IMG/VR virus record: IMGVR_UViG_3300009124_000063
Span: 1 to 30,932 of that record
Length of the DNA: 30,932 bases
Origin: a virus
Reading direction: 5' to 3' (one strand)
In this document: positions 4,235-25,442 of the stretch, piece by piece
How the letters are laid out: every line of letters begins with the position of its first letter
Numbering within the stretch: the stretch's first letter is position 1
The notes under the pieces: generated by a model
Told to the model about the DNA's origin: nothing
The model's database searches: none
What the model saw: only the letters and a program-made list of their open reading frames with translations
Program-made: the position numbers and the translations under genes

Positions 4235-4542
4235 ACAGTAGGAAGGGCATACCAAATCGCAATAAGCGGTTCCTGTTAAACAGGTTGCAGGATATGTATG
4301 GGGATGACTTCCATCCGATTATGCGTATGGCAGAGCAGGCCGTGAGATTGCATGAGCGGGCAGAGACTGGCGACACTGCTGATATCAAGGCCAGCATAGA
4401 TGCGTGGGATAAGATCGCTGCGTACACTGAGCCTAAGCTGAAGGCTACCGAGGTTGATCTAACTACCAGTGACGGCAGTATGTCGCCTACGGTAATTGAA
4501 CTGATACCGCGACTCCCCGATGACGAATATAGCGACGATTGA
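4231..4542 (+). CDS. terS: Terminase small subunit (probable)
   Basis: A 103-residue protein from GTG 4231. The N-terminal KGIPNRNKRFLLNRL is the basic, Asn-rich opening of many phage small terminases. It is followed by a helical core (DFHPIMRMAEQAVRLHERAE, then DAWDKIAAYTEPKLKATEVD); the P-K-L-K-A ending of the core is common in this group. The C-terminus is acidic. It would recognise phage DNA and hand it to the large subunit. Support comes from position: its last 23 bases overlap the start of the large terminase gene. Confidence 0.75.
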   Translation: MNSRKGIPNRNKRFLLNRLQDMYGDDFHPIMRMAEQAVRLHERAETGDTADIKASIDAWDKIAAYTEPKLKATEVDLTTSDGSMSPTVIELIPRLPDDEYSDD

Positions 4543-5800
4543 ACTACCGCCAAAGCTGATCGAGTTATTCAGTGGTGAGGCGAGATATCGTTGCGCTTAT
4601 GGTGGTCGTGGTTCTGGGAAGAGTCGCTCTTTTGCAATCATGGCCTGCGTCAGAGGTTATATCTGGGGTCAGCAGGGCCGCTCGGGACAAATACTGTGTG
4701 CCCGTGAGTTCATGAACAGTCTGTCTGATAGCTCGTTTGAGGAGATCTCAGGGGCTATTAAGACGTATGACTGGCTGGCTGAGTATTACGAGGTTGGTGA
4801 GCGATACATACGCTCTAAAGACGGCAACATTGAGTTCACCTTTGCCGGTCTGCGTAGGAACCTCGACAGCATCAAATCTAAGGCCCGTATACTGCTCTGC
4901 TGGGTCGATGAGGCGGAGACGGTATCAGCTACTGCGTGGGACAAACTCGACCCCACAATCCGCGAGGAAGGCTCAGAACTATGGGTATCGTGGAACCCAG
5001 AGAGCAACCTATCAGCCACGCACCAAAGGTTCCGTAAAGACCCGCCAGAAAGCAGCAAGATCGTGGAGATCAACTGGCGCGACAACCCATATTTCCCCAA
5101 GGTGCTGGAGTTGGTGCGGAAGAATGACTTTGAGAAGCGCCCGGACAACTACGATCACATCTGGGAAGGCGCATTCCTAACCCACCATGAGGGCGCGTAT
5201 TACTCGCTAGAGATGCGTGACGCCAACGCTCAGGGCAGGATCACCGCAGTTCCGTATGAGACTGGCTCCCCGGTCATTACCGCATGGGACTTAGGGATAG
5301 GCGATACAACGGCAATCTGGTTCGCCCAGATGATTGGCCCTGAGACGCGCCTGATCGACCACTACGAGGCGTCTGGGGTCGGCCTAGACCACTACGTCAG
5401 GGTGTTGCAGCAGAAGGGCTACGTCTACGATCAGCATATCCTGCCGCATGATGTCAGGGTGCGGGAGCTAGGATCGGGCAAGTCACGGCTTGAGACGCTA
5501 CAATCTCTCGGGCTAAACAACATTCAGATAGCGCCACAGTTGAACGTAGATGACGGGATACAGGCGTCACGGTCTTTACTAGCAACGTGCTGGTTCGACG
5601 CTGAGAAGTGCGCCCACGGCGTTGATGCTTTGCGGGCATACCACCGCGAGTATGACGATAACAACCGTGTGTGGAAGGGAAGGCCAGCGCATGACTGGTC
5701 GAGCCACTCAGCAGACGCATTTAGGTATCTAGCGGTGGGATACAGGAAGACATCAAACTGGGGTGATCCTATACGCCGTAACCTACGCGGCATAGCGTGA
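4520..5800 (+). CDS. terL: Terminase large subunit (ATPase and nuclease)
   Basis: The DNA-packaging motor. The 426-residue protein has Walker A at 28-35 (GGRGSGKS), a Walker B-type ILLCWVDEAE at 124-133 with D130/E131, and a coupling-motif stretch LWVSWNP at 154-160. The nuclease half carries the likely metal-binding Asp residues D257 (TAWDLGIGDTT), D311 (PHDVRV) and D399 (SADAFRYL). This arrangement fits the Terminase_3/PBSX-type family, and the length is normal. It docks on the portal and cuts the concatemer. It starts inside the small terminase gene, and a short gap separates it from the PAPS-reductase-like gene. Confidence 0.95.
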   Translation: MTNIATIELPPKLIELFSGEARYRCAYGGRGSGKSRSFAIMACVRGYIWGQQGRSGQILCAREFMNSLSDSSFEEISGAIKTYDWLAEYYEVGERYIRSKDGNIEFTFAGLRRNLDSIKSKARILLCWVDEAETVSATAWDKLDPTIREEGSELWVSWNPESNLSATHQRFRKDPPESSKIVEINWRDNPYFPKVLELVRKNDFEKRPDNYDHIWEGAFLTHHEGAYYSLEMRDANAQGRITAVPYETGSPVITAWDLGIGDTTAIWFAQMIGPETRLIDHYEASGVGLDHYVRVLQQKGYVYDQHILPHDVRVRELGSGKSRLETLQSLGLNNIQIAPQLNVDDGIQASRSLLATCWFDAEKCAHGVDALRAYHREYDDNNRVWKGRPAHDWSSHSADAFRYLAVGYRKTSNWGDPIRRNLRGIA

Positions 5801-5811: not shown

Positions 5812-5832
5812 TTGCGATCTGGAGGGATTCGT

Positions 5833-6663
5833 ATGACATTCAAACTAAACGAGCCATCGTGCATCAGCTTTTCGGGGGGCAGGACTAGCGCCTATATGCT
5901 TTGGCGGTTCATCGAAGCCAACGACGGCTTGCCTGATGACTGCATTGTGACCTTTGCCAACACGGGCAAGGAGGCAGAGGAAACGCTGGAGTTTGTTAGG
6001 GACTGCGGCAAGTATTGGGACGTTCCGATTGTCTGGCTGGAATACCAATGGGCAGAGAAAACTAAGGATCGCTTCAAGGTTGTCGATTTCAATACAGCGG
6101 CAAGGGACGGCGAACCGTTTGAGGCATTGATTCACGCCAAGAAGTATCTGCCCAACCCTGTCGCACGGTTCTGCACGATTGAAATGAAGATAAAGACCAT
6201 TGCCCGTTATTTGGTGGCCCAAGGCGCGGCAGAGGACATGGGAAGCGCAGAGGCAATGTCTATTATCGGCATCAGGGCAGACGAGCAACGCAGGGCCGCG
6301 AAGATTGAGCCACACCGCAGACCGCTAGTGGCGGCAGGCGTCACCAAAGAGACAGTCAGTCAGTTCTGGGCAGAACAACCGTTCGACCTAAAGCTGCCTA
6401 ACGTGAATGGCGTTACACCCCACGGCAACTGCGATCTCTGCTATCTGAAGGGCGCAAACCTTATTGAGTCACTCATTCTTGAGAAGCCTAGCCGCGCGGA
6501 TTGGTGGGCAAGGATGGAGCGTGAATGTCCTGCAACGCGGCAATCAGGAGCCAGATGGCGCAATGACCGTCCGACTTATGGGGAGATGCAGGTTATTGCT
6601 AGGGAGCAGGGCCAGCTTGATTTGGCTGGGGATGAAACAGTGCCATGCTTCTGTGGTGATTAG
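5833..6663 (+). CDS. PAPS-reductase-like protein (adenine nucleotide alpha-hydrolase fold)
   Basis: ATG 5833 is chosen because GGAGGG (5821-5826) lies 6 bases upstream; an earlier in-frame start at 5812 would precede this site. The 276-residue protein has the family's pyrophosphatase loop SFSGGRTS at 12-19. It then has a Cys-Thr pair in RFCTIEMK (C114), CDLC at 200-203 and CFC at 272-274. Five spaced Cys suggest a metal or Fe-S site. Relatives activate a substrate by adenylation or bind adenylyl-sulfate compounds; the group includes PAPS reductase and DndC of DNA phosphorothioation. Phage members are common but mostly uncharacterised. Sulfur assimilation, nucleic-acid modification and defence evasion are all possible. 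Confidence 0.8.
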   Translation: MTFKLNEPSCISFSGGRTSAYMLWRFIEANDGLPDDCIVTFANTGKEAEETLEFVRDCGKYWDVPIVWLEYQWAEKTKDRFKVVDFNTAARDGEPFEALIHAKKYLPNPVARFCTIEMKIKTIARYLVAQGAAEDMGSAEAMSIIGIRADEQRRAAKIEPHRRPLVAAGVTKETVSQFWAEQPFDLKLPNVNGVTPHGNCDLCYLKGANLIESLILEKPSRADWWARMERECPATRQSGARWRNDRPTYGEMQVIAREQGQLDLAGDETVPCFCGD

Positions 6664-6672
6664 CCTAGCGAT

Positions 6673-6680
6673 GGTATAAT
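6673..6680 (+). promoter_or_regulatory. GGTATAAT element (copy 1)
   Basis: A perfect -10 hexamer TATAAT (6675-6680) in a 22-bp gap, followed by five G and the ATG at 6686. No -35 hexamer is seen at the right spacing. Transcription would start at about the ATG, so it may give a leaderless message or serve genes farther down. The same octamer occurs at 8508 and 17185. Confidence 0.4.
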
Positions 6681-6685
6681 GGGGG

Positions 6686-7108
6686 ATGGCAGATAACCCC
6701 TTTGAAAACTACGGTTTGATGGAGCGGCTATTGGACTACAACCCAATGACCGTCATCCGCAATCCAATAGACACCATGCAACACCTCGCATTTCCAGAGG
6801 CGATAGCTCAGCGCATAATGCGGGAGAATCCGGAGCTTGGGCCTCGCGTTGATCGCGGCATCCTAGATATGGCTATCAACTTTGCTGGTGGCTATGACTG
6901 GGCTGCTAGGGAAGGGATAACGCCACAGGCGGCAAAAGAGATGGCAAGAGCGTACCAGTACAGGGATTACGCAGAGCGCCCAGATGACGCCATCCAAGAC
7001 TATTACGAGAACGTTGCAGGCATTGATGCGTTTACGGGTGAGCGCGTCCCAACAAGTAGCCTGATTGAGATGGCGCTTGAGTACGCTAGGAATAAGGCGA
7101 GCAAATGA
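6686..7108 (+). CDS. Hypothetical protein
   Basis: A 140-residue helical protein; ATG 6686 directly follows a GGGGG. It has a short hydrophobic middle (ILDMAINFAGGYDWAA) and many acidic residues, with YQYRDYAERPDDAIQDYYENVAG in the second half. It overlaps the next gene by 4 bases (ATGA), so the two are probably functional partners. Not recognised. Confidence 0.6.
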   Translation: MADNPFENYGLMERLLDYNPMTVIRNPIDTMQHLAFPEAIAQRIMRENPELGPRVDRGILDMAINFAGGYDWAAREGITPQAAKEMARAYQYRDYAERPDDAIQDYYENVAGIDAFTGERVPTSSLIEMALEYARNKASK

Positions 7109-8505
7109 GCAACGATATGCCGCAGCTACTCCCATACCAGCCGGGCTTCATTGAGTCAGCCCGAGATAAGATCGCGTCAGGTTTGCTAGGCATGGGTCTG
7201 TATGAAGACAACCCGTATGCCGCATATAGAGCCGCTGAGGGTCTGCTGTCGGTTGTGGACTTCCTGCCCGGAATAGGCGACGCAAAAGGCGCTGTAGAGA
7301 CGGTGGATGCCGCGAATAAGGGCGATTACGCAACCGCTGGACTCATGGGTGCTGCGACCGCTGCAGGCGTTGTTCCAGTGCTGGGTGATGCTGCGTCTGC
7401 GGTGCTGATGGGAATAGCAAGGCGCGGAGGAAAAGAGGACAGGCTTTTGGATTTAGGCTTTCTTAGTCCTGAGTACCTTGATAACCCAACCCAGATCAAA
7501 AGGGCTGAGACAAGCTACGATAAGGCCATGAGTGGTAGCAAGGGCTTTGCTGACAGGGAGGCGATTGCTATAGCGAACCAAGGGGAGACTGTCAGAGAGG
7601 TTCAAGAGTTTCCGCAAACATACATTAGTCCGGAGGTTCTAGCATCTGGTGATTACGCCTTAACACCAGTGCGTGGCGACAGGTCATTTATAGGGCTGAT
7701 AGATATGGTAGGAGGAGTCCCCACTGGGAGATCAGTTCCTGTGCAGGGTGGCGCTCAATACCCGCAGGCTAACCCAGAGGCGTGGCAATCAAACCTTGCG
7801 GTGGCACAGTCACAGCATGACAAGTTCAAAAGAATTGCTGAGCAGACGGGAAGGCAGCCGATAGGCATTTATAACACCATGGGCTTGGAGTCAGTTAATT
7901 TCTCTACGCCTCCAGCGGAGGTTATGTTTTTGCAGACCAAGAACATCAACATCCCCAAAAAAGACAAAACAGCGTTTGATAAAGAGCTAAAGGCGACATA
8001 CAAAGATTGGCCCGGCTTGGACAGCCCAGACGCAATGGATTGGATTCTTGGTCGAGGTGACTTCCCTAATGAGGGCAAGCGCCGCACTAAGTTCACCACT
8101 CTAATGGGCATGGCAAAGTACAGGGATAGGGGCTTTCCCTCGTATGGTCAGGTGCTTGAGGCATCTACGTTGCCGGAATTGCGCCAAGCAGAGCTTGGTG
8201 AGTCTGGATTTACGATGCTTTTGCCAGATGTTTCTCGTGACGTTTTTCCGAGCAGCAGGCATCAATCATATGACACTGTAATGCCGGGCAGTTATTTCGG
8301 TTCTTTAGAGCAGCCAGTACCGTTCTCGGTTATGTTCCCTGACTATTACCAAGCTGCTAGGCAAAGGATGACGAGTGGAAGCGTCCCCAGACCATTTACC
8401 CACACTGAAGCCATTGACGCGATGAATAAGCGCAAAGACGGCTTTATAGTGCCGGATCAGCAATGGCTTGATGGGCTGATGTCATATATAGAAAGTCAGC
8501 GGTAA
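7105..8505 (+). CDS. Large unknown phage protein with a pre-toxin-like hydrophobic N-terminal segment
   Basis: The protein has 466 residues. Residues about 47-104 form a Gly/Ala-rich hydrophobic region with two related turns, LPGIGDAKGA (54-63) and VPVLGDAASA (91-100). This resembles the segment that precedes toxin domains in polymorphic toxins and occurs in large polyvalent phage proteins. The remaining 360 residues are soluble and not recognised; conserved-looking blocks include KRRTKFTTLMGMAKYRDRGFPS, SSRHQSYDTVMPGSYFG and PVPFSVMFPDYYQ. No catalytic motif is evident. Its place between terminase and the tail genes suggests a late product, perhaps carried in the virion or delivered to the host. 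It is translationally coupled to the gene before it. Confidence 0.65.
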   Translation: MSNDMPQLLPYQPGFIESARDKIASGLLGMGLYEDNPYAAYRAAEGLLSVVDFLPGIGDAKGAVETVDAANKGDYATAGLMGAATAAGVVPVLGDAASAVLMGIARRGGKEDRLLDLGFLSPEYLDNPTQIKRAETSYDKAMSGSKGFADREAIAIANQGETVREVQEFPQTYISPEVLASGDYALTPVRGDRSFIGLIDMVGGVPTGRSVPVQGGAQYPQANPEAWQSNLAVAQSQHDKFKRIAEQTGRQPIGIYNTMGLESVNFSTPPAEVMFLQTKNINIPKKDKTAFDKELKATYKDWPGLDSPDAMDWILGRGDFPNEGKRRTKFTTLMGMAKYRDRGFPSYGQVLEASTLPELRQAELGESGFTMLLPDVSRDVFPSSRHQSYDTVMPGSYFGSLEQPVPFSVMFPDYYQAARQRMTSGSVPRPFTHTEAIDAMNKRKDGFIVPDQQWLDGLMSYIESQR

Positions 8506-8527: not shown

Positions 8528-8761
8528 ATGAAGCCAGCGAAAGGCAAGGCAAGAGTCAAAAAGACCGCATCTGGCAAGAAGGTCAGCTACGGTCAGAAAG
8601 GCGCAAGTGTGAAGCCCGGGACAAAGAAGGGCGACTCATACTGCGCTCGCTCTGCTGGGCAAATGAAGAGCCACCCAAGGGCGGCGAAAGACCCTAACTC
8701 GCCGTTGCGGTTATCTCGCAAGCGGTGGAAGTGTTCTGGCACTAAGTCGAGGAAGAAGTAA
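8528..8761 (+). CDS. Small Lys/Arg-rich protein (basic cluster 1)
   Basis: A 77-residue protein, about a third Lys or Arg, opening KPAKGKARVKKTASGKKVSYG and ending KSRKK. A central GDSYCARSAGQM block and a C-terminal RLSRKRWKCSG make it more than simple sequence. Its charge suggests DNA or RNA binding, perhaps inside the capsid. Similar small basic proteins are frequent beside tail or adaptor genes in T7- and SU10-like marine phages, with no proven role. The stop overlaps the next start (TAATG). Confidence 0.7.
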   Translation: MKPAKGKARVKKTASGKKVSYGQKGASVKPGTKKGDSYCARSAGQMKSHPRAAKDPNSPLRLSRKRWKCSGTKSRKK

Positions 8762-8940
8762 TGGGCATGGGCGTCAAGCATTACTTTAAGGACGGCAAGG
8801 AGCATAAGGGCGGTTATCACAAGATGCCGGACGGGTCGCTGCACTCTGGCGCGACTCACGGTAAAAACAGCAAGCGGTTGTACCACTATGGCGATCTAAG
8901 CCAAAAATCAAAGCGCAAAGCGCGGGAGACTTGGAAGTAA
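8761..8940 (+). CDS. Small basic His/Gly/Lys-rich protein (basic cluster 2)
   Basis: A 59-residue frame from ATG 8761 to TAA 8938-8940. It overlaps the previous stop by one base and the next start by one base. The sequence opens MGMGVKHYFKDGKEHKGGYH and contains MPDGSLHSGATHGKNSKRLYH. It is strongly basic with seven His. No other frame covers this interval, and it has stop/start coupling on both sides, supporting a real gene. Function unknown. Confidence 0.68.
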   Translation: MGMGVKHYFKDGKEHKGGYHKMPDGSLHSGATHGKNSKRLYHYGDLSQKSKRKARETWK

Positions 8941-8987
8941 TGCCGTATCACAAGGGTAAAAAGAAAGGTAAGAAGCGTGGCAAGTAA
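8940..8987 (+). CDS. 15-residue poly-basic micropeptide (basic cluster 3)
   Basis: ATG 8940 overlaps the preceding stop (TAATG). The peptide is MPYHKGKKKGKKRGK: 9 of 15 residues are Lys or Arg. It is too short for routine gene calling, but its composition matches both neighbours, and it fills the only uncovered stretch of the cluster. It could be a DNA-condensing peptide, or merely a coupling leader for the next gene. Moderate to low certainty. Confidence 0.42.
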   Translation: MPYHKGKKKGKKRGK

Positions 8988-9132
8988 GGGCTTGTACGCC
9001 AACATTCACGCCAAGCGCAGGCGCATAGCGGCTGGCTCTGGCGAGAAGATGCGGAAAGCTGGGTCGAAGGGTGCGCCTACGGCTAAGGCATTCAAGCAGT
9101 CGGCTAAGACTGCCAAGAAGCGGAACAAGTAA
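8977..9132 (+). CDS. Small Lys/Arg/Ala-rich protein (basic cluster 4)
   Basis: A frame of 51 residues from GTG 8977, opening with the SKGLYANIHAKRRRIAAGSG stretch and then EKMRKAGSKGAPTAKAF, ending AKKRNK. The KGLYANIHAK...EKMRK pattern is one I associate with tiny proteins of marine T7-like phages that sit next to head-tail genes. A GTG start inside the preceding frame is consistent with coupling, and the stop abuts the adaptor ATG. Function is unknown; nucleic-acid contact is likely from charge. Confidence 0.68.
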   Translation: MASKGLYANIHAKRRRIAAGSGEKMRKAGSKGAPTAKAFKQSAKTAKKRNK

Positions 9133-9753
9133 ATGGCACTGTCAAACTATACTGAGCTAAAGGCGTCGATCGCTGACTTCCTAAACCGCGATGACCTGAC
9201 AAGCGTGATCCCCGACTTCATTGCGCTGGCTGAGGCGGCAATCAACCGCGATATCCGCCACTATGAGATGGAGAACAGGGCTACGGCTGACCTAGACCAG
9301 CAGTACCTAGACAGGCCATCTGATTGGGTTGAGACAATCCGCATCAACATCACCAGTGGCGGCACTCGTCACCTTGAGCACCTGTCATCTGCGTCTATGG
9401 CTGATAAGCGAGCAGGGGCAGAGAACACGACCGGAGAGCCGCGATACTACCGTCACGCTGAGAGGGCATTTGAGGTATTCCCAACGCCTGATGGGACGTA
9501 TGAGGTGGAGTTGCTGTATTACCAAAAGATCCCATCGCTGGCGACCAACTCAACCAACTGGTTGCTAACAGATCACCCAGACATCTACCTGTATGGCGCT
9601 CTCTTGCATTCAGCGCCGTATCTCGCTGAAGACCAGCGTGTTGGTGTGTGGGCGCAGCTATACTCTGCTGCTAGGGATAGGGTCAATCAAAGTGGGGAGC
9701 TTGCGTCATTCTCAGGCTCTGGGCTTACATTAAAAGTTAAGGGGCTAGGATGA
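9133..9753 (+). CDS. Head-tail adaptor protein (SU10-type)
   Basis: A 206-residue protein with the family opening YTELKASIADFLNRDDLTS, then PDFIALAEAAINRDIRHYEM and a strand-rich middle. It contains WVETIRI, the EVFPTPDGTYEVELLYYQKIP block and LLTDHPDIYLYGALLHSAPYL. These blocks are typical of the adaptor that sits below the portal in SU10-like short-tailed phages. It would link portal and nozzle. Its gene starts right after the basic cluster and overlaps the next start (ATGA), but lies about 13.6 kb before the portal gene. Confidence 0.8.
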   Translation: MALSNYTELKASIADFLNRDDLTSVIPDFIALAEAAINRDIRHYEMENRATADLDQQYLDRPSDWVETIRINITSGGTRHLEHLSSASMADKRAGAENTTGEPRYYRHAERAFEVFPTPDGTYEVELLYYQKIPSLATNSTNWLLTDHPDIYLYGALLHSAPYLAEDQRVGVWAQLYSAARDRVNQSGELASFSGSGLTLKVKGLG

Positions 9754-10163
9754 GCTTTTCAGACTACCTAGAGGATAAGATCCTCGATCACGTTTTTGGC
9801 GGGGTAGCATACACTGCGCCGTCTACGCTTTACGTTGGGTTGTTTACGTCAACTGCGAGCGACTCTGCCGCAGGCACTGAGGTATCAGGCAACGGATATG
9901 CGCGTCAGACCGCCGCATTTACGGTATCGGGGACAACCCCTACTACAGCCGCGTCTAGCGCCAATATAGAGTTCCCAGAGGCCACAGGCTCATGGGGGAC
10001 TATCACCTATGCGGGTATCTTTGATGCGCTCACAGGCGGCAATATGCTGGCCTACGCAGAGCTTACAGACCCTGCCGACTTTGTTACTGCGCTTCCGAAG
10101 GCTGTAGATACTGGTGACATCCTACGGATCAATGCTGGCAACCTGAAGGTGACGCTTGACTAA
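9750..10163 (+). CDS. Phage tail-fibre-like structural protein
   Basis: A 137-residue protein of a family common in tailed phages. It opens SDYLEDKILDHVFGG, followed by PSTLYVGLFTSTASD, then FPEATGSWGTITYAGIFDA and an end GDILRINAGNLKVTLD. It is all-beta in appearance and usually annotated as tail fibre. It probably forms or decorates the fibre base. Coupled to the adaptor before and to the long fibre after (TAATG). Confidence 0.72.
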   Translation: MSFSDYLEDKILDHVFGGVAYTAPSTLYVGLFTSTASDSAAGTEVSGNGYARQTAAFTVSGTTPTTAASSANIEFPEATGSWGTITYAGIFDALTGGNMLAYAELTDPADFVTALPKAVDTGDILRINAGNLKVTLD

Positions 10164-12694
10164 TGACTACCATCGTAACCCGAACGGAGACGCAGACTGA
10201 CGGGACTGCGCCAAAAAACTCAGAGCTTTCATGGTCTGAGGTAGATACCAACTTTATCAACCTCAATGACGATAAGGTTGAGGTTTCTGGCGCTATCATC
10301 TTTGCAGCTAAGGCTGGGGAGGCGCTTTCTAAGGGCGATGTAGTCTATGTGTCGGGTGTCAGTGGTAATGAGCCAGTAGTCTCTAAGGCAGACGCTGATG
10401 ATGCCGCTAAGATGCCTGCATTTGGCTTGGCTGAGGCTGACGCTAACCTTAACGCCGCAGTCAACGTAGTTACGTTCGGCACACTCTACGATCTGGATAC
10501 CTCTGCGTTTAGCGCGGGGGATGCCGTATACGTCTCCACAACGGCTGGTAGCTTGACCGCAACCAAGCCTACTGGTGAGTCATCACTTCTGCAAAACCTT
10601 GGCCTAGTAATCCGCTCACACGCTTCTGCGGGGTCTATCAAGGTAGGTGGCGCAGGCCGTACCAATGCTGTCCCTAACCTAAATGATGGCAACGTCTTTA
10701 TCGGTAATGCGAGCAATCAGGCAGAGGCTAGGGCGCTTGTAGAGGCCGACATTAGTGATTTGCAAGCGTACCTCACTAGCGTGTCGGTTAGTGGGCTTTC
10801 GGATGCCACGATTACTTCGGTAGCGGACAATGAAGTGCTTGCATACGACAGCACTAGCTCTGAATGGATTAACCAAACGGCGGCAGAAGCTGGGCTGGCA
10901 ACATCTGCCCAAGGATCTCTTGCTGATAGCGCACTGCAACCGGCTGACCTTAGCGTTACGACTAACGCGGTAGGAACGGCTGCATTAACGTATACCAGTG
11001 GAACGGGTGTATTCAGTTATACGCCGCCCGACTTGTCTGGATACCTAACCACCGTATCTGTGGATAGCCTTTCTGATGCCACTATCACAACGCCAGCAGA
11101 CAACGAGCTTTTTGCGTATAACTCAGCGACTAGCGAGTGGATCAACCAAACCCCAACGGAGGCTGGATTTGCCACGGTAGCTACGTCTGGTGCGTATTCT
11201 GATTTATCAGGAACGCCAACTAATGTCAGCACCTTCGCTAATGATGCAGGATACCTAACCAGCTACACAGAAACAGATACGCTTGATTCAGTAACAGGGC
11301 GAGGCGCTACGACTACCAACGCGGTAACGGTTGGCAATCTAACTTCCACAGGCATCGACGATAACGCAATAAGCACTGCGATCACGATTGACTCTTCACA
11401 GCAGGTTGGTATTGGAACCGCCTCACCTGCAAACCTTGTGGACATCGTTAGCAGTGCCTCAACGCCCACATTAAGAATACAAAGCACCAACGGATCTTCT
11501 ACTACGCCAACGCTAAAATTTGACGGCATTAATGACGGCACTATACAAATGGCGAGCGGGGGGCTAGGCGGCTTAACCATCCAGCGGGATGGTGGTGCTG
11601 GGCTGTTGTTCAAGAATAGCGCCAGCGAGATAGATGTTACCGGCACGTTTACCACCTTCACCTCTACTGGCATCGACGATAACGCCACCAGCACAGCGAT
11701 CACGATTGATAGCTCGCAGAACGTGGGGATTGGTCAGACTGCGCCAGATACTAGCGCCAGCTACGCCACGCTTCACGTAGGCGACAATGCCGCGTCTCCA
11801 GACAACGCTAGGCTCATCTTGGAAGGTAGTACCAACAAGTACGGCATATACGCCTTTGGCACTAACTTGGGTATATATGATTACACGAGCGGGGCGAATA
11901 GGCTTACGCTTGATTCCAGTGGCAACATAGGGCTGGGCGACGGCACTATATCCGCAACGCTTGATTTGCATTCAACAACGGCTGGGCGAGTGCTTTCGGT
12001 AGAAGGCTCTGGCGGCAAATGGGCATCTATTGTTAGCGGCACAGGCACTACTGGCCCAGTGTTGGCGTTTAATAACACTGCATCGCGTTTCCGCATTGCG
12101 TCGGGGACTGACAAGCTAGGCACTGGGTTAACAGAACACCTCATTGTTGAGCCAAGCGGCGACGTAGGGATAGGCGTTGTTCCGGGGGCGGGCCGTCTTT
12201 ATATACAAGGTAGCACATCAGACTCTACCGCTTATGCACAGTACACGAGGAATAGCGGAGGCAATCAGCTATTCTCTATACGTAATGACGGTTTAATGAG
12301 TACAGGGCTTCAGGCTACTTCACCCTATAACCTGACCACTGGTTTCTCGGCCAATATGCACGTAAACAGCGCCGGTAATGTCTTTAGGTCAACGTCATCA
12401 GCAAGGTACAAAAGAAACATTCAAGACATGACGTATGGCGTAGCGGATGTGATGAATCTGCGAGCCGTTACCTTTGAGCAAAAGAACGAATACCCAAGCA
12501 ATACATACGCAGGCTTTATCGCTGAAGAAGTACACGACGCGGGGCTTGTGGAGTTCGTTGAATACAACGACGCAGGACAGCCCGACGCTGTACACTACGC
12601 CAACATGGTGTCACTGCTTACCAAGGCAATACAAGAACAGCAGGCAACCATTGAATCGCTAACCGCACGCATTGAACAACTGGAGGCCAACTAA
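10163..12694 (+). CDS. Long tail fibre with C-terminal S74 intramolecular chaperone
   Basis: An 843-residue host-recognition protein. The N-terminal 170 residues include a KAGEALSKGDVVYVSG module common in phage fibres. Two near-copies follow at about 203-245 and 294-337 (DATIT...ADNE...AY...SEWINQT). Two copies of a GIDDNA-x-STAITIDSSQ-x-VGIG block come after, near 396-418 and the matching region encoded at about 11668-11738. The end is a Peptidase_S74 domain: SSARYKRNI with putative dyad S745 and K750, AGFIAEEV, then a coiled-coil tail (AIQEQQATIESLTARIEQLE). In known proteins this domain helps trimerise the fibre, then cuts itself off at the Ser. Confidence 0.88.
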   Translation: MTTIVTRTETQTDGTAPKNSELSWSEVDTNFINLNDDKVEVSGAIIFAAKAGEALSKGDVVYVSGVSGNEPVVSKADADDAAKMPAFGLAEADANLNAAVNVVTFGTLYDLDTSAFSAGDAVYVSTTAGSLTATKPTGESSLLQNLGLVIRSHASAGSIKVGGAGRTNAVPNLNDGNVFIGNASNQAEARALVEADISDLQAYLTSVSVSGLSDATITSVADNEVLAYDSTSSEWINQTAAEAGLATSAQGSLADSALQPADLSVTTNAVGTAALTYTSGTGVFSYTPPDLSGYLTTVSVDSLSDATITTPADNELFAYNSATSEWINQTPTEAGFATVATSGAYSDLSGTPTNVSTFANDAGYLTSYTETDTLDSVTGRGATTTNAVTVGNLTSTGIDDNAISTAITIDSSQQVGIGTASPANLVDIVSSASTPTLRIQSTNGSSTTPTLKFDGINDGTIQMASGGLGGLTIQRDGGAGLLFKNSASEIDVTGTFTTFTSTGIDDNATSTAITIDSSQNVGIGQTAPDTSASYATLHVGDNAASPDNARLILEGSTNKYGIYAFGTNLGIYDYTSGANRLTLDSSGNIGLGDGTISATLDLHSTTAGRVLSVEGSGGKWASIVSGTGTTGPVLAFNNTASRFRIASGTDKLGTGLTEHLIVEPSGDVGIGVVPGAGRLYIQGSTSDSTAYAQYTRNSGGNQLFSIRNDGLMSTGLQATSPYNLTTGFSANMHVNSAGNVFRSTSSARYKRNIQDMTYGVADVMNLRAVTFEQKNEYPSNTYAGFIAEEVHDAGLVEFVEYNDAGQPDAVHYANMVSLLTKAIQEQQATIESLTARIEQLEAN

Positions 12695-18116: not shown

Positions 18117-18566
18117 ATGTTTGCCCAACAATCTAGAGCGCAATTTGCACCTATGAGTGCGCCTCCCGGCAGTCCCCGGCAAGGAATTGGCGGCGGCGGC
18201 AAAGGCGGGGCATCGAGTTCTTCTCCCGGAAGCGTTGGCAAAGGCGGGGCCAACTTTAATGACCGGAATAAAATTGGGCTGTCTCAGTTCCCCGGCCTTA
18301 ATGGCAGCCCAAGCCAAGCCATGCAGGGCGCTATGAATGCCGCTAATACGGCGACAATGCCAGCAAGGGGATCATTTATGGCTCCTGCCGCTCCAGATTT
18401 AAACTTTCAAACCGGCGGCGGATTCCAGATGCAGCCAATGATGCCCAGTCCGCGACCAATGGTTAATTTCGGGCAAGTACAGCCGATAAATAATCCTGTA
18501 TTCCCGTCTGGTAATAACTTGCCAGCAGTCTTAATGCAAATGCCTCAAGGCTTTGGAGGCATCTAA
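18117..18566 (+). CDS. Low-complexity Gly/Pro/Met-rich protein
   Basis: A 149-residue protein with Gly-Lys-Gly runs (GIGGGGKGGASSSS), a Met/Pro/Gln-rich second half (FQMQPMMPSPRPMVN) and no clear fold. It is probably disordered and part of the internal-protein set. The GGGGKGG motif recurs in the genes on either side, which suggests shared origin or shared binding. Coupled to the next gene by TAATG. Confidence 0.55.
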   Translation: MFAQQSRAQFAPMSAPPGSPRQGIGGGGKGGASSSSPGSVGKGGANFNDRNKIGLSQFPGLNGSPSQAMQGAMNAANTATMPARGSFMAPAAPDLNFQTGGGFQMQPMMPSPRPMVNFGQVQPINNPVFPSGNNLPAVLMQMPQGFGGI

Positions 18567-19771
18567 TGGGCGCACCAGCAGGCGGACAAACCACAGCACC
18601 AGCAACTGGAGGCAAGGGTGGCGGAATGGCTGGCCCTTCATACCAAGGGCTTGATGCGTTCCAACAAGCGTCTCAGGGCATGACGCAGGCGTATGGCGGC
18701 GCTCAGAACGCGATGTATTACCAGCCCATGATGATTGGCAACTTGCCGCAGGCTGGCGGTGGCGGGGCTTCAGCGCAAATGCTTGACCCCAACTCAACAA
18801 ATTATCAAGCGGCGCAGTTCCAGCAGGCTGACCTTGATCGGTTCATGAACCCCTACACGGGGCAGGTAATTGACCAATCACTTGCAGATATTGAGCGGGC
18901 AAGGCTACAGCAGTCCAACCAAGCGGCGGCACAGGCTACTGCGGCAGGGGCTTTTGGTGGCTCAAGGGGCGCGTTGATGGAGGCAGAGATTGCCCGCAAC
19001 GCATTGCAACAAGGCGCAAGCACGGCGGCTGATTTGCGTAATCAGGGCTTCCAGTTTGCCTCTCAAATGGGTCAGCAAGATGCTGCTCGACGACAGCAAG
19101 CACTACAGCAGAATGCACAGCAACAGCTTCAAGCACTGCTTGCGAATCAGGCTTCCGGCCTTGCGGCGTCACAAACCAACGCTCAACTCGGCGCTCAAGC
19201 AAGTATCGCAAACGCAGCTAACGCGCTTAATGCGGCAATGTCGAATCAGTCAGCAGGGTTGCAGGGATCTTCTCAGCAACTTGCGGCTGCGCTTGGCCTT
19301 GGCAATCTATCAAACCTTGGCTTTGGTATGGGTCAAGACGTTCTGCAAGGAATGCAGCAGCAAGGCTTGGTGCAACAGATGATGCAGCAGCAACTCATTG
19401 ACGCGGCTAAAGGTCAGTACGGCGGCTATCAAGGTCAGCCTAGCACTGCGCTTGGCTATCTTGCTCAGGCACTTGGCGCTACCCAAGTTCCGCAAAGCCA
19501 GTCCACGTCCAGCAACCCGGGATTGTTTGGCTGGGCGTCTATGCTGCTGGGGTCTGATGCTAGGCTCAAGAAGAACATTCGCAGAGTCGGCAAGACCCCC
19601 GGCGGTCACAACCTGTACGCATGGGACTGGAAGAAGCAAGCCAAGAGCGTATTTGGCAAGTCCGGCTCTGACATGGGCGTATTGGCACAAGAGGTTATGG
19701 AAACTAGGCCGGATCTGGTCATCCAGTTCCCTGATGGCTACTACCGCGTAAACTATGGGGGCATCTCATGA
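18566..19771 (+). CDS. Gln/Ala-rich virion protein with short C-terminal S74-type domain
   Basis: The protein has 401 residues. After a Gly-rich start, residues about 70-100 carry QADLDRFMNPYTGQVIDQSL. This is followed by a long Gln/Ala helix with QATAAGAFGGSRGALMEAEIAR, ending at about residue 310. The C-terminus from S330 reads SDARLKKNI...GVLAQEVMETRPDLV...GYYRVNYGGIS, a Peptidase_S74 core with a possible Ser330/Lys335 pair. It stops right after the core and lacks the usual coiled-coil tail. Q/A helices suit an ejection protein that forms a channel. The gene sits among internal proteins and not with the fibres, so the S74 domain may fold this protein. Confidence 0.7.
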   Translation: MGAPAGGQTTAPATGGKGGGMAGPSYQGLDAFQQASQGMTQAYGGAQNAMYYQPMMIGNLPQAGGGGASAQMLDPNSTNYQAAQFQQADLDRFMNPYTGQVIDQSLADIERARLQQSNQAAAQATAAGAFGGSRGALMEAEIARNALQQGASTAADLRNQGFQFASQMGQQDAARRQQALQQNAQQQLQALLANQASGLAASQTNAQLGAQASIANAANALNAAMSNQSAGLQGSSQQLAAALGLGNLSNLGFGMGQDVLQGMQQQGLVQQMMQQQLIDAAKGQYGGYQGQPSTALGYLAQALGATQVPQSQSTSSNPGLFGWASMLLGSDARLKKNIRRVGKTPGGHNLYAWDWKKQAKSVFGKSGSDMGVLAQEVMETRPDLVIQFPDGYYRVNYGGIS

Positions 19772-21496: not shown

Positions 21497-23352
21497 TGGC
21501 TAGAACAACAGAAGAAATTCTTGCAGAAATTCGGGCTGGGCAGGCTCGATCCTCTGCCGCGCCGGTAGAATCGCAAAAGTTCCGCACAGCCTTGCAGGGT
21601 GCTACTTACAACTTTGCTGATGAAATAGAGGCTGCTGTCCGTAGCGTCCTACCAGAATCTTTAGGTGGTGGTGAATACGAGCAGATTCGCAATGAGTTAC
21701 GTCAAAAACTTTCGGCGTACAAAAAGGCTAACCCGGGGGAGGCATTGAGCTACGAGCTTGCTGGCGCATTGGTTCCTGCGATTGGCATGATGGCAGTACC
21801 CGGCGGTCAGGCTTTGGGCGGTGCAAGATTGGCTGCTGTCGCTGGCGCTGAGGGGCTTGGGTCTTATTTGGGAGAGGTTGAAGAACTTTCTGATGTCACG
21901 CCGGGAGGAGCGGCCTTAGCTACTAGCATTAGCGCAGTAGGTGGCCCATTGGCGCAGAAGGGACTATCTGTCGCAGGCGCTGGCGGTAGTCAGTTGATCA
22001 AGTATGTCAGGGGCAAGTTTGGCGATGCACCCGCTACGGCAGTGCAGTCAGAGTTGCGTAGGCTTGCTGCGGCGACAGGCCAGAGTGTTGAAGAAGTCAT
22101 ACAAGATGTCATGGACGGCAGGATCATGGCAGAAAACAAAACCCTACAGGCGTCCGTAAGGGCGCTGCGGAGCCAAGGCGGTGGCGCGGCTAGAGAGATT
22201 ACAGAGCGGCTACCAGTAAGGCGTAAAGCTACACGCGCTGCTGCGATGGAAGGTATGCAAGAAGGGCTTGCTCCCGGCGTATCTGGCAATGTCATTAAAG
22301 CAATGAAGGCTACGGATGAAGAGCTTGGCAGGCTAGAGAGAGAGGCTTACGAGGCTGTCTTTGGCGGAATCCCGAATGTAAACACCAAGATAGCTAGAGA
22401 GATTGAGTCGATCCTCGGGCGCTTCCCAGATGCTCGCAGGGCGCTGACAAGCATTTACAACAAGCGAAACACCGTACCGCTCTGGGATGAAGAGCGAAAC
22501 ATACTGCGCCGAGTGCCTAGCCTAGAGGATGCCGAGATTGTTCGCAGACTGCTAGATGATGAGGCGTCAGTGTTGTTCCGCGCAGGATCTGGAACAGAAG
22601 GCGCAGCGACCGCCGATGTAGCAAAATCCCTCAGAGAGATGCTTGATGAGTCTTACGATGGCTTGCGTACAGTAAGGGCCAACGCCGCAGCGCGTAGGGA
22701 AATACGCGACCAGTTTGACGCAGGGCGAAAGGCTATCAGGATGAATTCTGATGAGCTAGAAGTTATTTTTGAGCAAGTTAAAGGCAAGGGCGATGCGGCA
22801 GTACGCGCTTTCCGCGCTGGTGTTATGGATGCTATTAGAAATAAGTCCGAGATTTCTCCCGGGCTTATGGGACGCCTTGCTGATCCTGAACGTCGGGAAG
22901 GCGCTGTGTTGCGTGTTGTTTTCCCAGATGAAAGCATGGAGCAAATACAGAAGCGGCTAGAGATAGCAGAAGGTTCTCAGGAGCTTTATAACAAGGTTAT
23001 GTTTAACTCTATGACAGCCCCAGAGCAGGCTGCCAGATCACTAATCGGTACTGGCGACATCAGTGCATTTGAGATGCGCGAGTTGTTGACGGGCAACCCT
23101 GCTGCGCTTATGGCTGGTCTTGGGAAAATGGTTGCCAAGGCCATACCTGAGATGTCAGACGCAGACCGCACGAGCGTTGCAAGGGTGCTGCTGTCTGATG
23201 ATCCGCAGCTAGTAATGAAGGCGCTAACAGACAACACCCAGCTTGATAAACTGCTGGCGAAAATACAGCAAGTCGTAAATGCTGGTGCTGCGGGCGTAAG
23301 AACAGGTGTCACTCAGCAGACCGGCGGACTACTGGCAGAAGGTAACTATTAA
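21496..23352 (+). CDS. Large internal virion / ejection protein (putative)
   Basis: ATG 21496 (TAATG) is chosen; an in-frame start at 21439 would only extend back over the previous gene. The 618-residue protein has a short strongly helical start. It then has the block ATYNFADEIEAAVRSVLP and YEQIRNELRQKLSAYKKANPGEALSYELAGALVP, typical of large internal proteins in aquatic short-tailed phages. A hydrophobic Gly/Ala region follows at about residues 85-170 (GMMAVPGGQALGGARLAAVAGAEGLGS), and the rest is helical and Arg/Glu-rich. No transglycosylase Glu motif is evident. The hydrophobic stretch could enter the host membrane during ejection. Confidence 0.65.
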   Translation: MARTTEEILAEIRAGQARSSAAPVESQKFRTALQGATYNFADEIEAAVRSVLPESLGGGEYEQIRNELRQKLSAYKKANPGEALSYELAGALVPAIGMMAVPGGQALGGARLAAVAGAEGLGSYLGEVEELSDVTPGGAALATSISAVGGPLAQKGLSVAGAGGSQLIKYVRGKFGDAPATAVQSELRRLAAATGQSVEEVIQDVMDGRIMAENKTLQASVRALRSQGGGAAREITERLPVRRKATRAAAMEGMQEGLAPGVSGNVIKAMKATDEELGRLEREAYEAVFGGIPNVNTKIAREIESILGRFPDARRALTSIYNKRNTVPLWDEERNILRRVPSLEDAEIVRRLLDDEASVLFRAGSGTEGAATADVAKSLREMLDESYDGLRTVRANAAARREIRDQFDAGRKAIRMNSDELEVIFEQVKGKGDAAVRAFRAGVMDAIRNKSEISPGLMGRLADPERREGAVLRVVFPDESMEQIQKRLEIAEGSQELYNKVMFNSMTAPEQAARSLIGTGDISAFEMRELLTGNPAALMAGLGKMVAKAIPEMSDADRTSVARVLLSDDPQLVMKALTDNTQLDKLLAKIQQVVNAGAAGVRTGVTQQTGGLLAEGNY

Positions 23353-25442
23353 TGCTCAAGCCAATGACAGAACAAGAAATCGAGTCAATCGCCCGTGAAG
23401 CGGTCAATGATTCGGTTGATTTTGTAGAGTCCGAAATTGCCGAAGACCGCATCAAGGCGCAACGATACTTTGACGGCGAGGTAGATATTGGCGAGGAAGA
23501 GGGACGGTCGAAGGTTGTTGCCACCAAGGTGCGCGACACAATCCGAGCGATCAAGCCGTCCCTCATGCGCGTATTCCTATCTACGGATAAGCCCGTAGAG
23601 TATGTACCACGCGGCCCTGAAGACGTACAGGCGGCAGAGCAGGCCACCGAGTATATGCACTACGTCTTTAATGAGCATAACGGCTACCGAGTGCTGAATG
23701 ACGCTTTCCACGATGCAATGGTCAAGAAGGTCGGCATCGTTAAGGTCTACTGGGACAACTACCAAGAGCAAGAAACATACGAGTTTGAAAACCTCAACGA
23801 GATGGAATATCGCGTCCTGACGATGGATGACGATGTTGAGGTGCTTGAGTCTACAACTCGAATTGAGATTCAAATTGATGAGATGGGGATGGAGATTGAA
23901 ACCCCCATCTACGATTTGAAAATTGCTCGCTACAAAGATGTCGGCAAGATGTGCATTGAGTCAGTGCCGCCGGAAGAGTTCTTTGTTGATCGAAACGCCA
24001 GAAACATCAAGGACGCCTACGCGGTGTGCCACCGTACAGAAATGCGGATTGGCGACCTGATATCTATGGGCTATGACTACGAGGATGTGAAGGATCTGAC
24101 GGGACTTCAGCACTCAGACACGTTCTCAGAGGTTGAGGAGTTTGAGCGCAGGGGCTACGAAGAAGATTACTCCGACGAGGATATCCAAGATCCGGCTATG
24201 CGCCTTGTTGCCGTCACTGAGGTTTACATGAAGATTGATGTGACCGGCAGTGGCGTCCCTACGCTGCAAAAGGTCACCCTTGGCGGAGCCGCCTATAAGT
24301 TGCTGGATTACATGGCCTGCTCGCACATTCCGTTTGCCGTGTTTGAAGTAGATCCAGAGCCGCACACTTTCTACGGTCGATCGGTAGCTGATTTGATCAT
24401 TAACGATCAGGACGCATCCACGGCTATGCTGAGGGGTGTTCTGGATAACGTAGCCCTGACCAACAACCCGCGTCTTGAGATTGTTGACGGCGCTGTAAAC
24501 ATTGATGATCTGCTAAACAATGAGATTGGCGGCATCATCCGAGTTAAGCAGGCTGGCGCTATACAGCCGCAGGCGATCCCATTTGTTGCCGGTCAAACGC
24601 TGACCGCGCTCCAGTACATGGATCAAGAGATTGAGAATAAGACAGGCGTAACCAAGGCGTCTACTGGCCTATCTCCAGACTCATTGCAAAACACTACCGC
24701 CGCCGCAGTTCAGGCCACCGTACAGGCTCAGGCAGGGCAGATTGAGGTTATGGCTCGCAATCTTGCTGAGGGCGGTATGCGGCAGATGTTTACTTTGATG
24801 CTCAAGGTAATGCATGAGAACGTGGAAGAGGCGCAAATGATGCGCCTTGTTGGTGAGGGGTATGTCCCGGTAGATCCGCGCTCTTGGAACGTCACGATGG
24901 ACGTAACGGTGAACGTGGGTCTAGGCACTGGGCGCGAGGAACAGAAGCTGGCGGCACTTATGCAGGCATTCCAAGTTCAGCAGCAAATACTTGGTCAGTA
25001 CGGGCCGCAGAATGGAATCGTGACGCTCACTCAAGTGCGTAACACTCTGGCAGACATTCTTGCCCTTAACGGCATCCGCAACAGTACCCGCTACTTCAAT
25101 CCCATGAACCCGCAGGTTGAGCAGCAGTTGCTAATGCAACAACAACAAGCGGCCCAGCAACAGCAGGGTCAGCCACAAGACGCGCAGGCTCAGGCGTACC
25201 TACAAGCCGAGTCAATGAAAGCGCAGGCCAAGGCTCAGACCGACATGGCTAAGTTGCAGGCTCAGGCGCAGAAGGATCAATTCAAGATGCAGCTAGACGC
25301 TCAGAAGGCGATGGCTGACGATGACCTTGCGCGTGATAAAATGGATCAAGACTTGTTGATTAGCGCGGCTGAGATACTTGGCAAGTACGGCACTGCGCTA
25401 GACGTACAGAGAATTAAGCAAATGCAGGCAATGCCTAGATGA
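23352..25442 (+). CDS. Portal protein (P22-like)
   Basis: A 696-residue protein forming the dodecameric vertex through which DNA passes. The N-terminal part reads like the P22-type portal family: DRIKAQRYFDGEVDIGEEEGRSKVVATKVRDTI, PSLMRVFLSTDKPVEYVPRGPED, and AFHDAMVKKVGIVKVYWDNY. The clip/stem region follows, with PFAVFEVDPEPHTFYGRSVADLI and GVLDNVALTNNPRLEI. Residues about 590-670 are a Gln/Ala/Lys helix (QQQQAAQQQQGQ and following), fitting the long barrel or crown of large portals. It starts in the previous stop and overlaps the next start by 4 bases. Confidence 0.88.
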   Translation: MLKPMTEQEIESIAREAVNDSVDFVESEIAEDRIKAQRYFDGEVDIGEEEGRSKVVATKVRDTIRAIKPSLMRVFLSTDKPVEYVPRGPEDVQAAEQATEYMHYVFNEHNGYRVLNDAFHDAMVKKVGIVKVYWDNYQEQETYEFENLNEMEYRVLTMDDDVEVLESTTRIEIQIDEMGMEIETPIYDLKIARYKDVGKMCIESVPPEEFFVDRNARNIKDAYAVCHRTEMRIGDLISMGYDYEDVKDLTGLQHSDTFSEVEEFERRGYEEDYSDEDIQDPAMRLVAVTEVYMKIDVTGSGVPTLQKVTLGGAAYKLLDYMACSHIPFAVFEVDPEPHTFYGRSVADLIINDQDASTAMLRGVLDNVALTNNPRLEIVDGAVNIDDLLNNEIGGIIRVKQAGAIQPQAIPFVAGQTLTALQYMDQEIENKTGVTKASTGLSPDSLQNTTAAAVQATVQAQAGQIEVMARNLAEGGMRQMFTLMLKVMHENVEEAQMMRLVGEGYVPVDPRSWNVTMDVTVNVGLGTGREEQKLAALMQAFQVQQQILGQYGPQNGIVTLTQVRNTLADILALNGIRNSTRYFNPMNPQVEQQLLMQQQQAAQQQQGQPQDAQAQAYLQAESMKAQAKAQTDMAKLQAQAQKDQFKMQLDAQKAMADDDLARDKMDQDLLISAAEILGKYGTALDVQRIKQMQAMPR

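Follow-up and report, generated by a model that had tools for sequence, protein, structure and literature searches.

Two small proteins of the podovirus T7, gp7.3 and gp6.7, are encoded in its structural block and ejected from the virion. The first, gp7.3, sits at the adaptor–nozzle junction, where its lysines K84 and K85 contact the DNA end, and gp6.7 bridges the portal and the core (PMC11784390). The gene cassette described here also belongs to a podovirus structural block, with portal, adaptor or capsid genes close by, both in the viral contig analysed and in P-SCSP1u and pelagiviruses. Its products are putative virion proteins, it differs from the T7 genes in order and lengths, and the likeness is drawn by analogy, with no homology claimed.

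Closer in sequence are two families previously known only as families of unknown function, DUF6321 (PF19846) and phrog_16028. DUF6321-type sequences occur in 547 phage records, mostly from phages that infect aquatic organisms, cyanobacteria and SAR11 among them, and no paper in the literature searched names the domain. In T4-like cyanophages the domain occupies the C-terminal part of larger proteins, the T4-GC119 proteins; stand-alone DUF6321 proteins also exist and adjoin phrog_16028 proteins. A third family, phrog_7595 (basic proteins of 87–93 aa), likewise adjoins phrog_16028 proteins and matches weakly inside phrog_220, annotated as "minor head protein and DNA pilot". Neither the linkage of such genes as an exchangeable cassette nor a selected 15-codon gene among them was found described in the literature searched.

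Results

The window, a viral contig of 30.9 kb, carries the cassette at 8528–9132, with all four frames on the plus strand:

4520–5800: terminase large subunit (terL), from Pfam/PHROG profile search
8528–8761, plus strand: A77, 77-aa basic protein, ATG start; divergent relative of DUF6321
8761–8940, plus strand: B59, 59-aa His-rich basic protein, ATG start; no family match
8940–8987, plus strand: P15, 15-aa peptide MPYHKGKKKGKKRGK, ATG start
8977–9132, plus strand: C51, 51-aa basic protein, GTG start; phrog_16028
9133–9753, plus strand: SU10-type adaptor; Pfam SU10_adaptor, 128.9 bits; phrog_2941
23352–25442: SU10-type portal, from profile search of the window

The original prediction of four consecutive frames of 77, 59, 15 and 51 residues joined by stop/start overlaps was borne out. 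The B59 start overlaps the A77 stop as TAATG, B59 and P15 share one nucleotide in the same arrangement, and P15 overlaps C51 by 11 nt; the idea that P15 exactly fills the gap between its neighbours fails on these overlaps. The proposed position between terminase and adaptor genes is accurate on the downstream side, where the C51 stop at 9132 abuts the adaptor ATG at 9133, but loose upstream, where three further genes (5812–8505) separate the end of terL at 5800 from A77. Immediately 3′ of terL lies a PAPS-reductase-like gene (5812–6663; phrog_424, E = 2e-47). Elsewhere in the window, a Peptidase_S74 (chaperone of endosialidase) domain ends two separate genes (10163–12694 and 18566–19771), and positions 1481–2647 encode a C-5 cytosine DNA methylase (184 bits).

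Net charges are +23 for A77, +9 for B59, +8 for P15 and +15 for C51. Among 46 predicted genes ranked by charge per residue, A77 (0.30), C51 (0.29) and B59 (0.15) take the first three places, followed by a gene at 0.04, with a median of −0.03. The description of all four products as Lys/Arg-rich needs correcting for B59, a His-rich protein of moderate basicity.

All four frames are genes. Related stretches in IMG/VR number at least 597 for A77, 360 (in viral contigs) for B59 and at least 594 for C51. Pairwise Nei–Gojobori comparisons gave median dN/dS values of 0.105 for A77, 0.095 for B59, 0.138 for C51 and 0.076 for the adaptor, ratios that are only rough because dS is high (medians 1.3–1.5), and third-position changes were in excess. 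A77, B59 and C51 are conserved coding genes under purifying selection. P15 was recovered in four DNA versions encoding one identical peptide; the six variable sites all fall at codon position 3 and are all synonymous, an outcome with P of about 3e-4 given a probability of 0.26 that a random substitution is synonymous. These ratios, the synonymous-only variation of P15 and the conserved gene order place the frames beyond chance. The check originally proposed, conservation of the frames and of their order in relatives, bore the frames out, and neither the lack of conservation nor the random substitution pattern named as grounds for discarding them was seen (dN/dS 0.10–0.14 for A77, B59 and C51). 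The expectation that gene callers would miss three of the frames applies to P15 alone, since the annotations of isolates include relatives of the other three, A77, B59 and C51, as hypothetical proteins.

C51 matches phrog_16028 along its whole length (E = 6.4e-27; residues 1–49 to profile positions 1–49 of 50) and departed from it in no feature compared, and the family, found in 127 phage records, keeps specific invariant residues. B59 had no match among Pfam, PHROG or NCBIfam models, the last of which returned nothing for the cassette proteins of the window, and P15 matched no library searched. The B59 family alignment shows four invariant histidines (H7, H20, H33 and H42), and its predicted structure is of lower confidence than that of A77.

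A77 of the window had no Pfam match to DUF6321 at E up to 1, falling short of the gathering score of 28.5 bits, and as member 1 of the A77-family scan it had none at E up to 0.1. The DUF6321 model was matched by 16 of 48 A77-family members, the two families align by hhalign with a probability of 96.3% (E = 1.7e-9), and C39, R41, W67 and C69 do not vary in the aligned rows of either family; the N-terminal half of the window A77 differs. Membership of DUF6321 was rejected on the gathering score; with the common core and the profile similarity both present, A77 is best described as a divergent relative of DUF6321. AlphaFold2, run on an alignment of window and viral-contig sequences, predicts a hairpin followed by helices, with a best pLDDT of 87 and pTM of 0.69, although the alignment is shallow and the five models range from 69 to 87. 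A PDB fold search with this model found no match; among viral models the top hits are phage proteins that are uncharacterised, and DUF6321 proteins come further down the ranking. For the cassette proteins as a whole, no credible relative of solved structure emerged by sequence search, and none by fold.

The surroundings of the cassette were assessed from two sets of loci, one fetched through C51 alone (73 loci) and one through the adaptor alone (42 distinct loci with at least 1.8 kb upstream). Another small basic family lies within 600 nt of C51 in 48 of the 73 C51-anchored loci, and A77/DUF6321 in 35 of them. The nearest larger neighbour upstream of C51 is a terminase (phrog_2) in 22 of 65 cases and a scaffold (phrog_1018) in 6 of 65; downstream, it is a portal (phrog_156) in 15 of 58. 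C51 and A77/DUF6321 are often adjacent in otherwise unrelated head/packaging blocks of T7-like cyanophages, pelagiphages and SU10-type podoviruses, the order being MCP, DUF6321, C51 and gp11 adaptor in P-SCSP1u, and scaffold, a 34/35-aa basic ORF, C51, DUF6321 and MCP in pelagiviruses. In some relatives (L243, L255) phrog_7595, a separate sequence family absent from the cassette of the window, holds the place of A77. C51 and DUF6321 also occur within one protein (L353, L354, phrog_11180 and phrog_28131), as in the single ORF at L353:2983–3393. In addition, C51 is embedded in a 402-aa protein with no Pfam match at L362:2422–3627.

The cassette is accessory, since 16 of the 42 adaptor-anchored loci carry none of its families (26 of 42 do) and these families are likewise absent from P-SSP7 and Syn5. 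It may also be exchanged as a unit. Conservation of A77 can exceed that of the adaptor (93% versus 51% in L092, 94% versus 46% in L138), and in L279, L278, L274 and L085 the end of C51 and the first part of an adaptor gene are followed by partial adaptor copies and then by the full adaptor; both patterns would fit such exchange. In L085:973–2169 the partial copies, which match window positions 9541–9662, 9551–9592 and others, are spaced at about 300-nt steps; in L274, L278 and L279, too, copies recur in the interval from the C51 end to the full adaptor. The gene that directly precedes the cassette, in the place held in the window by 5812–8505, is highly variable: in some relatives (L104:2829–4733, L251:2480–4339 and L138:2021–4771) it gives a sub-threshold match to ART-PolyVal, the ADP-ribosyltransferase of polyvalent phage proteins, and in others to DUF7178.

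C51 relatives were also found in Variovorax and Xenophilus chromosomes (L359, L377, L395 and L400), where the companion basic families are absent. In L377 and L395 the adjacent gene encodes an Lhr-type helicase, whereas the neighbours in L359 and L400 are genes for transporters or metabolism. Because the neighbours tested are mostly cellular, a prophage origin was not assumed, and these may be cellular genes.

The position of P15 is a slot with variable content. Of 42 distinct relatives in which A77/B59 and C51 lie at least 30 nt apart, 36 have an ORF there whose start falls on the preceding stop and which runs to the start of C51. These ORFs encode 15–39 residues, mostly strongly basic, with a median net charge of 0.42 per residue. 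Among the remaining six, L244, L283 and L284 have two basic ORFs in succession, the first of 14–16 residues. The slot is occupied by at least three sequence types: GKKKGKKRGK peptides (14–20 aa), MPKVGGKKYPYTKAG... (34 aa) and Cys-rich CKGC... (27–38 aa). Some relatives have almost no gap before C51 and no slot ORF.

Published virion data bear on the cassette indirectly. The S-SSM5 annotation attaches the note "similar to Synechococcus phage S-SM1 protein" to the DUF6321-bearing GC119, to capsid, portal, tail and neck genes, and to GC190, GC969, gp14 and gp21; in the S-SSM5 stretches examined the note is absent from replication and metabolic genes. PMC3037559 names GC190, GC969, gp14 and gp21 as found in the S-SM1 virion, which indirectly suggests, by way of the annotation, that GC119 was detected there as well. 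The published virion proteomics searched yielded no detection of the exact cassette proteins. The DUF6321 protein SSZBM1_192 is not among the examined entries of the S-SZBM1 virion table, and a term search of the P-SCSP1u cryo-EM paper found mention of neither mass spectrometry nor small proteins. S-SZBM1_139, which is virion-detected, was considered as a C51 protein and dropped; it has only a different 45-residue motif, common to P-HM2_164. Trypsin digestion of P15 gives no peptide of usable length, so its absence from published virion proteomes would say little.

Discussion

The explanation tentatively preferred here, though held at somewhat less than even confidence, is that A77, B59, P15 and C51 form a modular accessory cassette whose products are located in the virion and contact the packaged DNA near the portal–adaptor vertex, where they hold or deliver its end. 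Encoded in the head/neck block, the proteins would be expressed late, probably in translational coupling with the adaptor, and would most likely end up in the particle. There they may touch DNA near the portal–adaptor vertex and help to hold the DNA end or deliver it, a place and timing of action that would make the cassette work somewhat like T7 gp7.3 and gp6.7, by analogy and not by homology. Consistent with this reading are the selection on the genes, including synonymous-only change, the overlapping or abutting stops and starts that run through to the adaptor, the recurrent head/packaging neighbourhood, the C51–DUF6321 fusion, the T4-GC119 note and the gp7.3 precedent. Counting against it are the negative outcome of the virion proteomics search, including that for SSZBM1_192 among the S-SZBM1 entries examined, the phages and adaptor-anchored loci that do without the cassette, the mostly cellular neighbours of chromosomal C51 relatives, and an A77 fold with no PDB match.

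A rival reading, which we consider somewhat unlikely, is a non-virion role: the proteins would be made during infection for assembly, packaging, RNA binding or host takeover, and would then be left out of the particle. In its favour are the negative proteomics search, the lack of the families in P-SSP7 and Syn5, and the chromosomal relatives of C51 with their mostly cellular neighbours; the variable genes adjoining the cassette, ADP-ribosyltransferase-like in several relatives, also favour it. The repeated head/packaging placement in unrelated phages and the indirect evidence on GC119 argue the other way.

For P15 the question is narrower. As a coupling spacer that merely passes ribosomes from B59 to C51, it would encode a functionless peptide. 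The stop/start overlap at each end, the conserved 3′ end that overlaps the C51 start region and the several unrelated sequences able to occupy the slot are all compatible with this. A spacer is not required, since in some relatives the slot is missing and the gap is near 0 nt, and synonymous change at six of six variable sites argues that the peptide itself matters. P15 could thus be a spacer, but the likelihood seems low.

According to the original prediction, basic proteins in a virion-gene block suggest DNA condensation or an internal head location. The block itself is supported, in that relatives lie in head/packaging and neck blocks; condensation and internal-head location are candidate roles only. 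In a protamine-like scheme many packaged copies would neutralise DNA charge inside the head, as the very high net charges (+23 on 77 residues, +15 on 51) and the head/packaging context would allow, and P15-slot peptides do keep composition more than exact sequence. Of the four products, only P15 has the low complexity and the lack of a conserved folded core expected of such a polycation; C51 keeps specific invariant residues. Pure condensation is made less likely by the invariant Cys/Arg/Trp/Cys residues and predicted fold of A77 and by the invariant histidines of B59, none of which simple charge neutralisation needs, and related podoviruses manage without the cassette. We regard it as improbable.

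That the frames are open by chance, in DNA rich in purines, is highly improbable, and for A77, B59 and C51 the selection tests refute it: 15 open codons are unremarkable for P15 in length alone, but the hundreds of relatives, the low dN/dS and the synonymous-only change in P15 speak against chance, as do the stops in the other two frames of 24 and 32 of 36 filled slots, a count biased on its own because slots were picked as open in the coding frame.

A bolder extension of the preferred virion reading, which must be considered doubtful, is that tiny cationic virion proteins are encoded across aquatic phages in a widespread cassette open to exchange, with one slot for interchangeable, separately selected peptides of as few as 14–15 residues, and that they sit on the DNA end at the head–tail vertex. 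The selected 15-codon gene is an example of what gene callers and trypsin-based proteomics overlook, and the linkage of DUF6321 and C51 as a neighbouring, sometimes fused head/packaging module gives these families a concrete, testable role.
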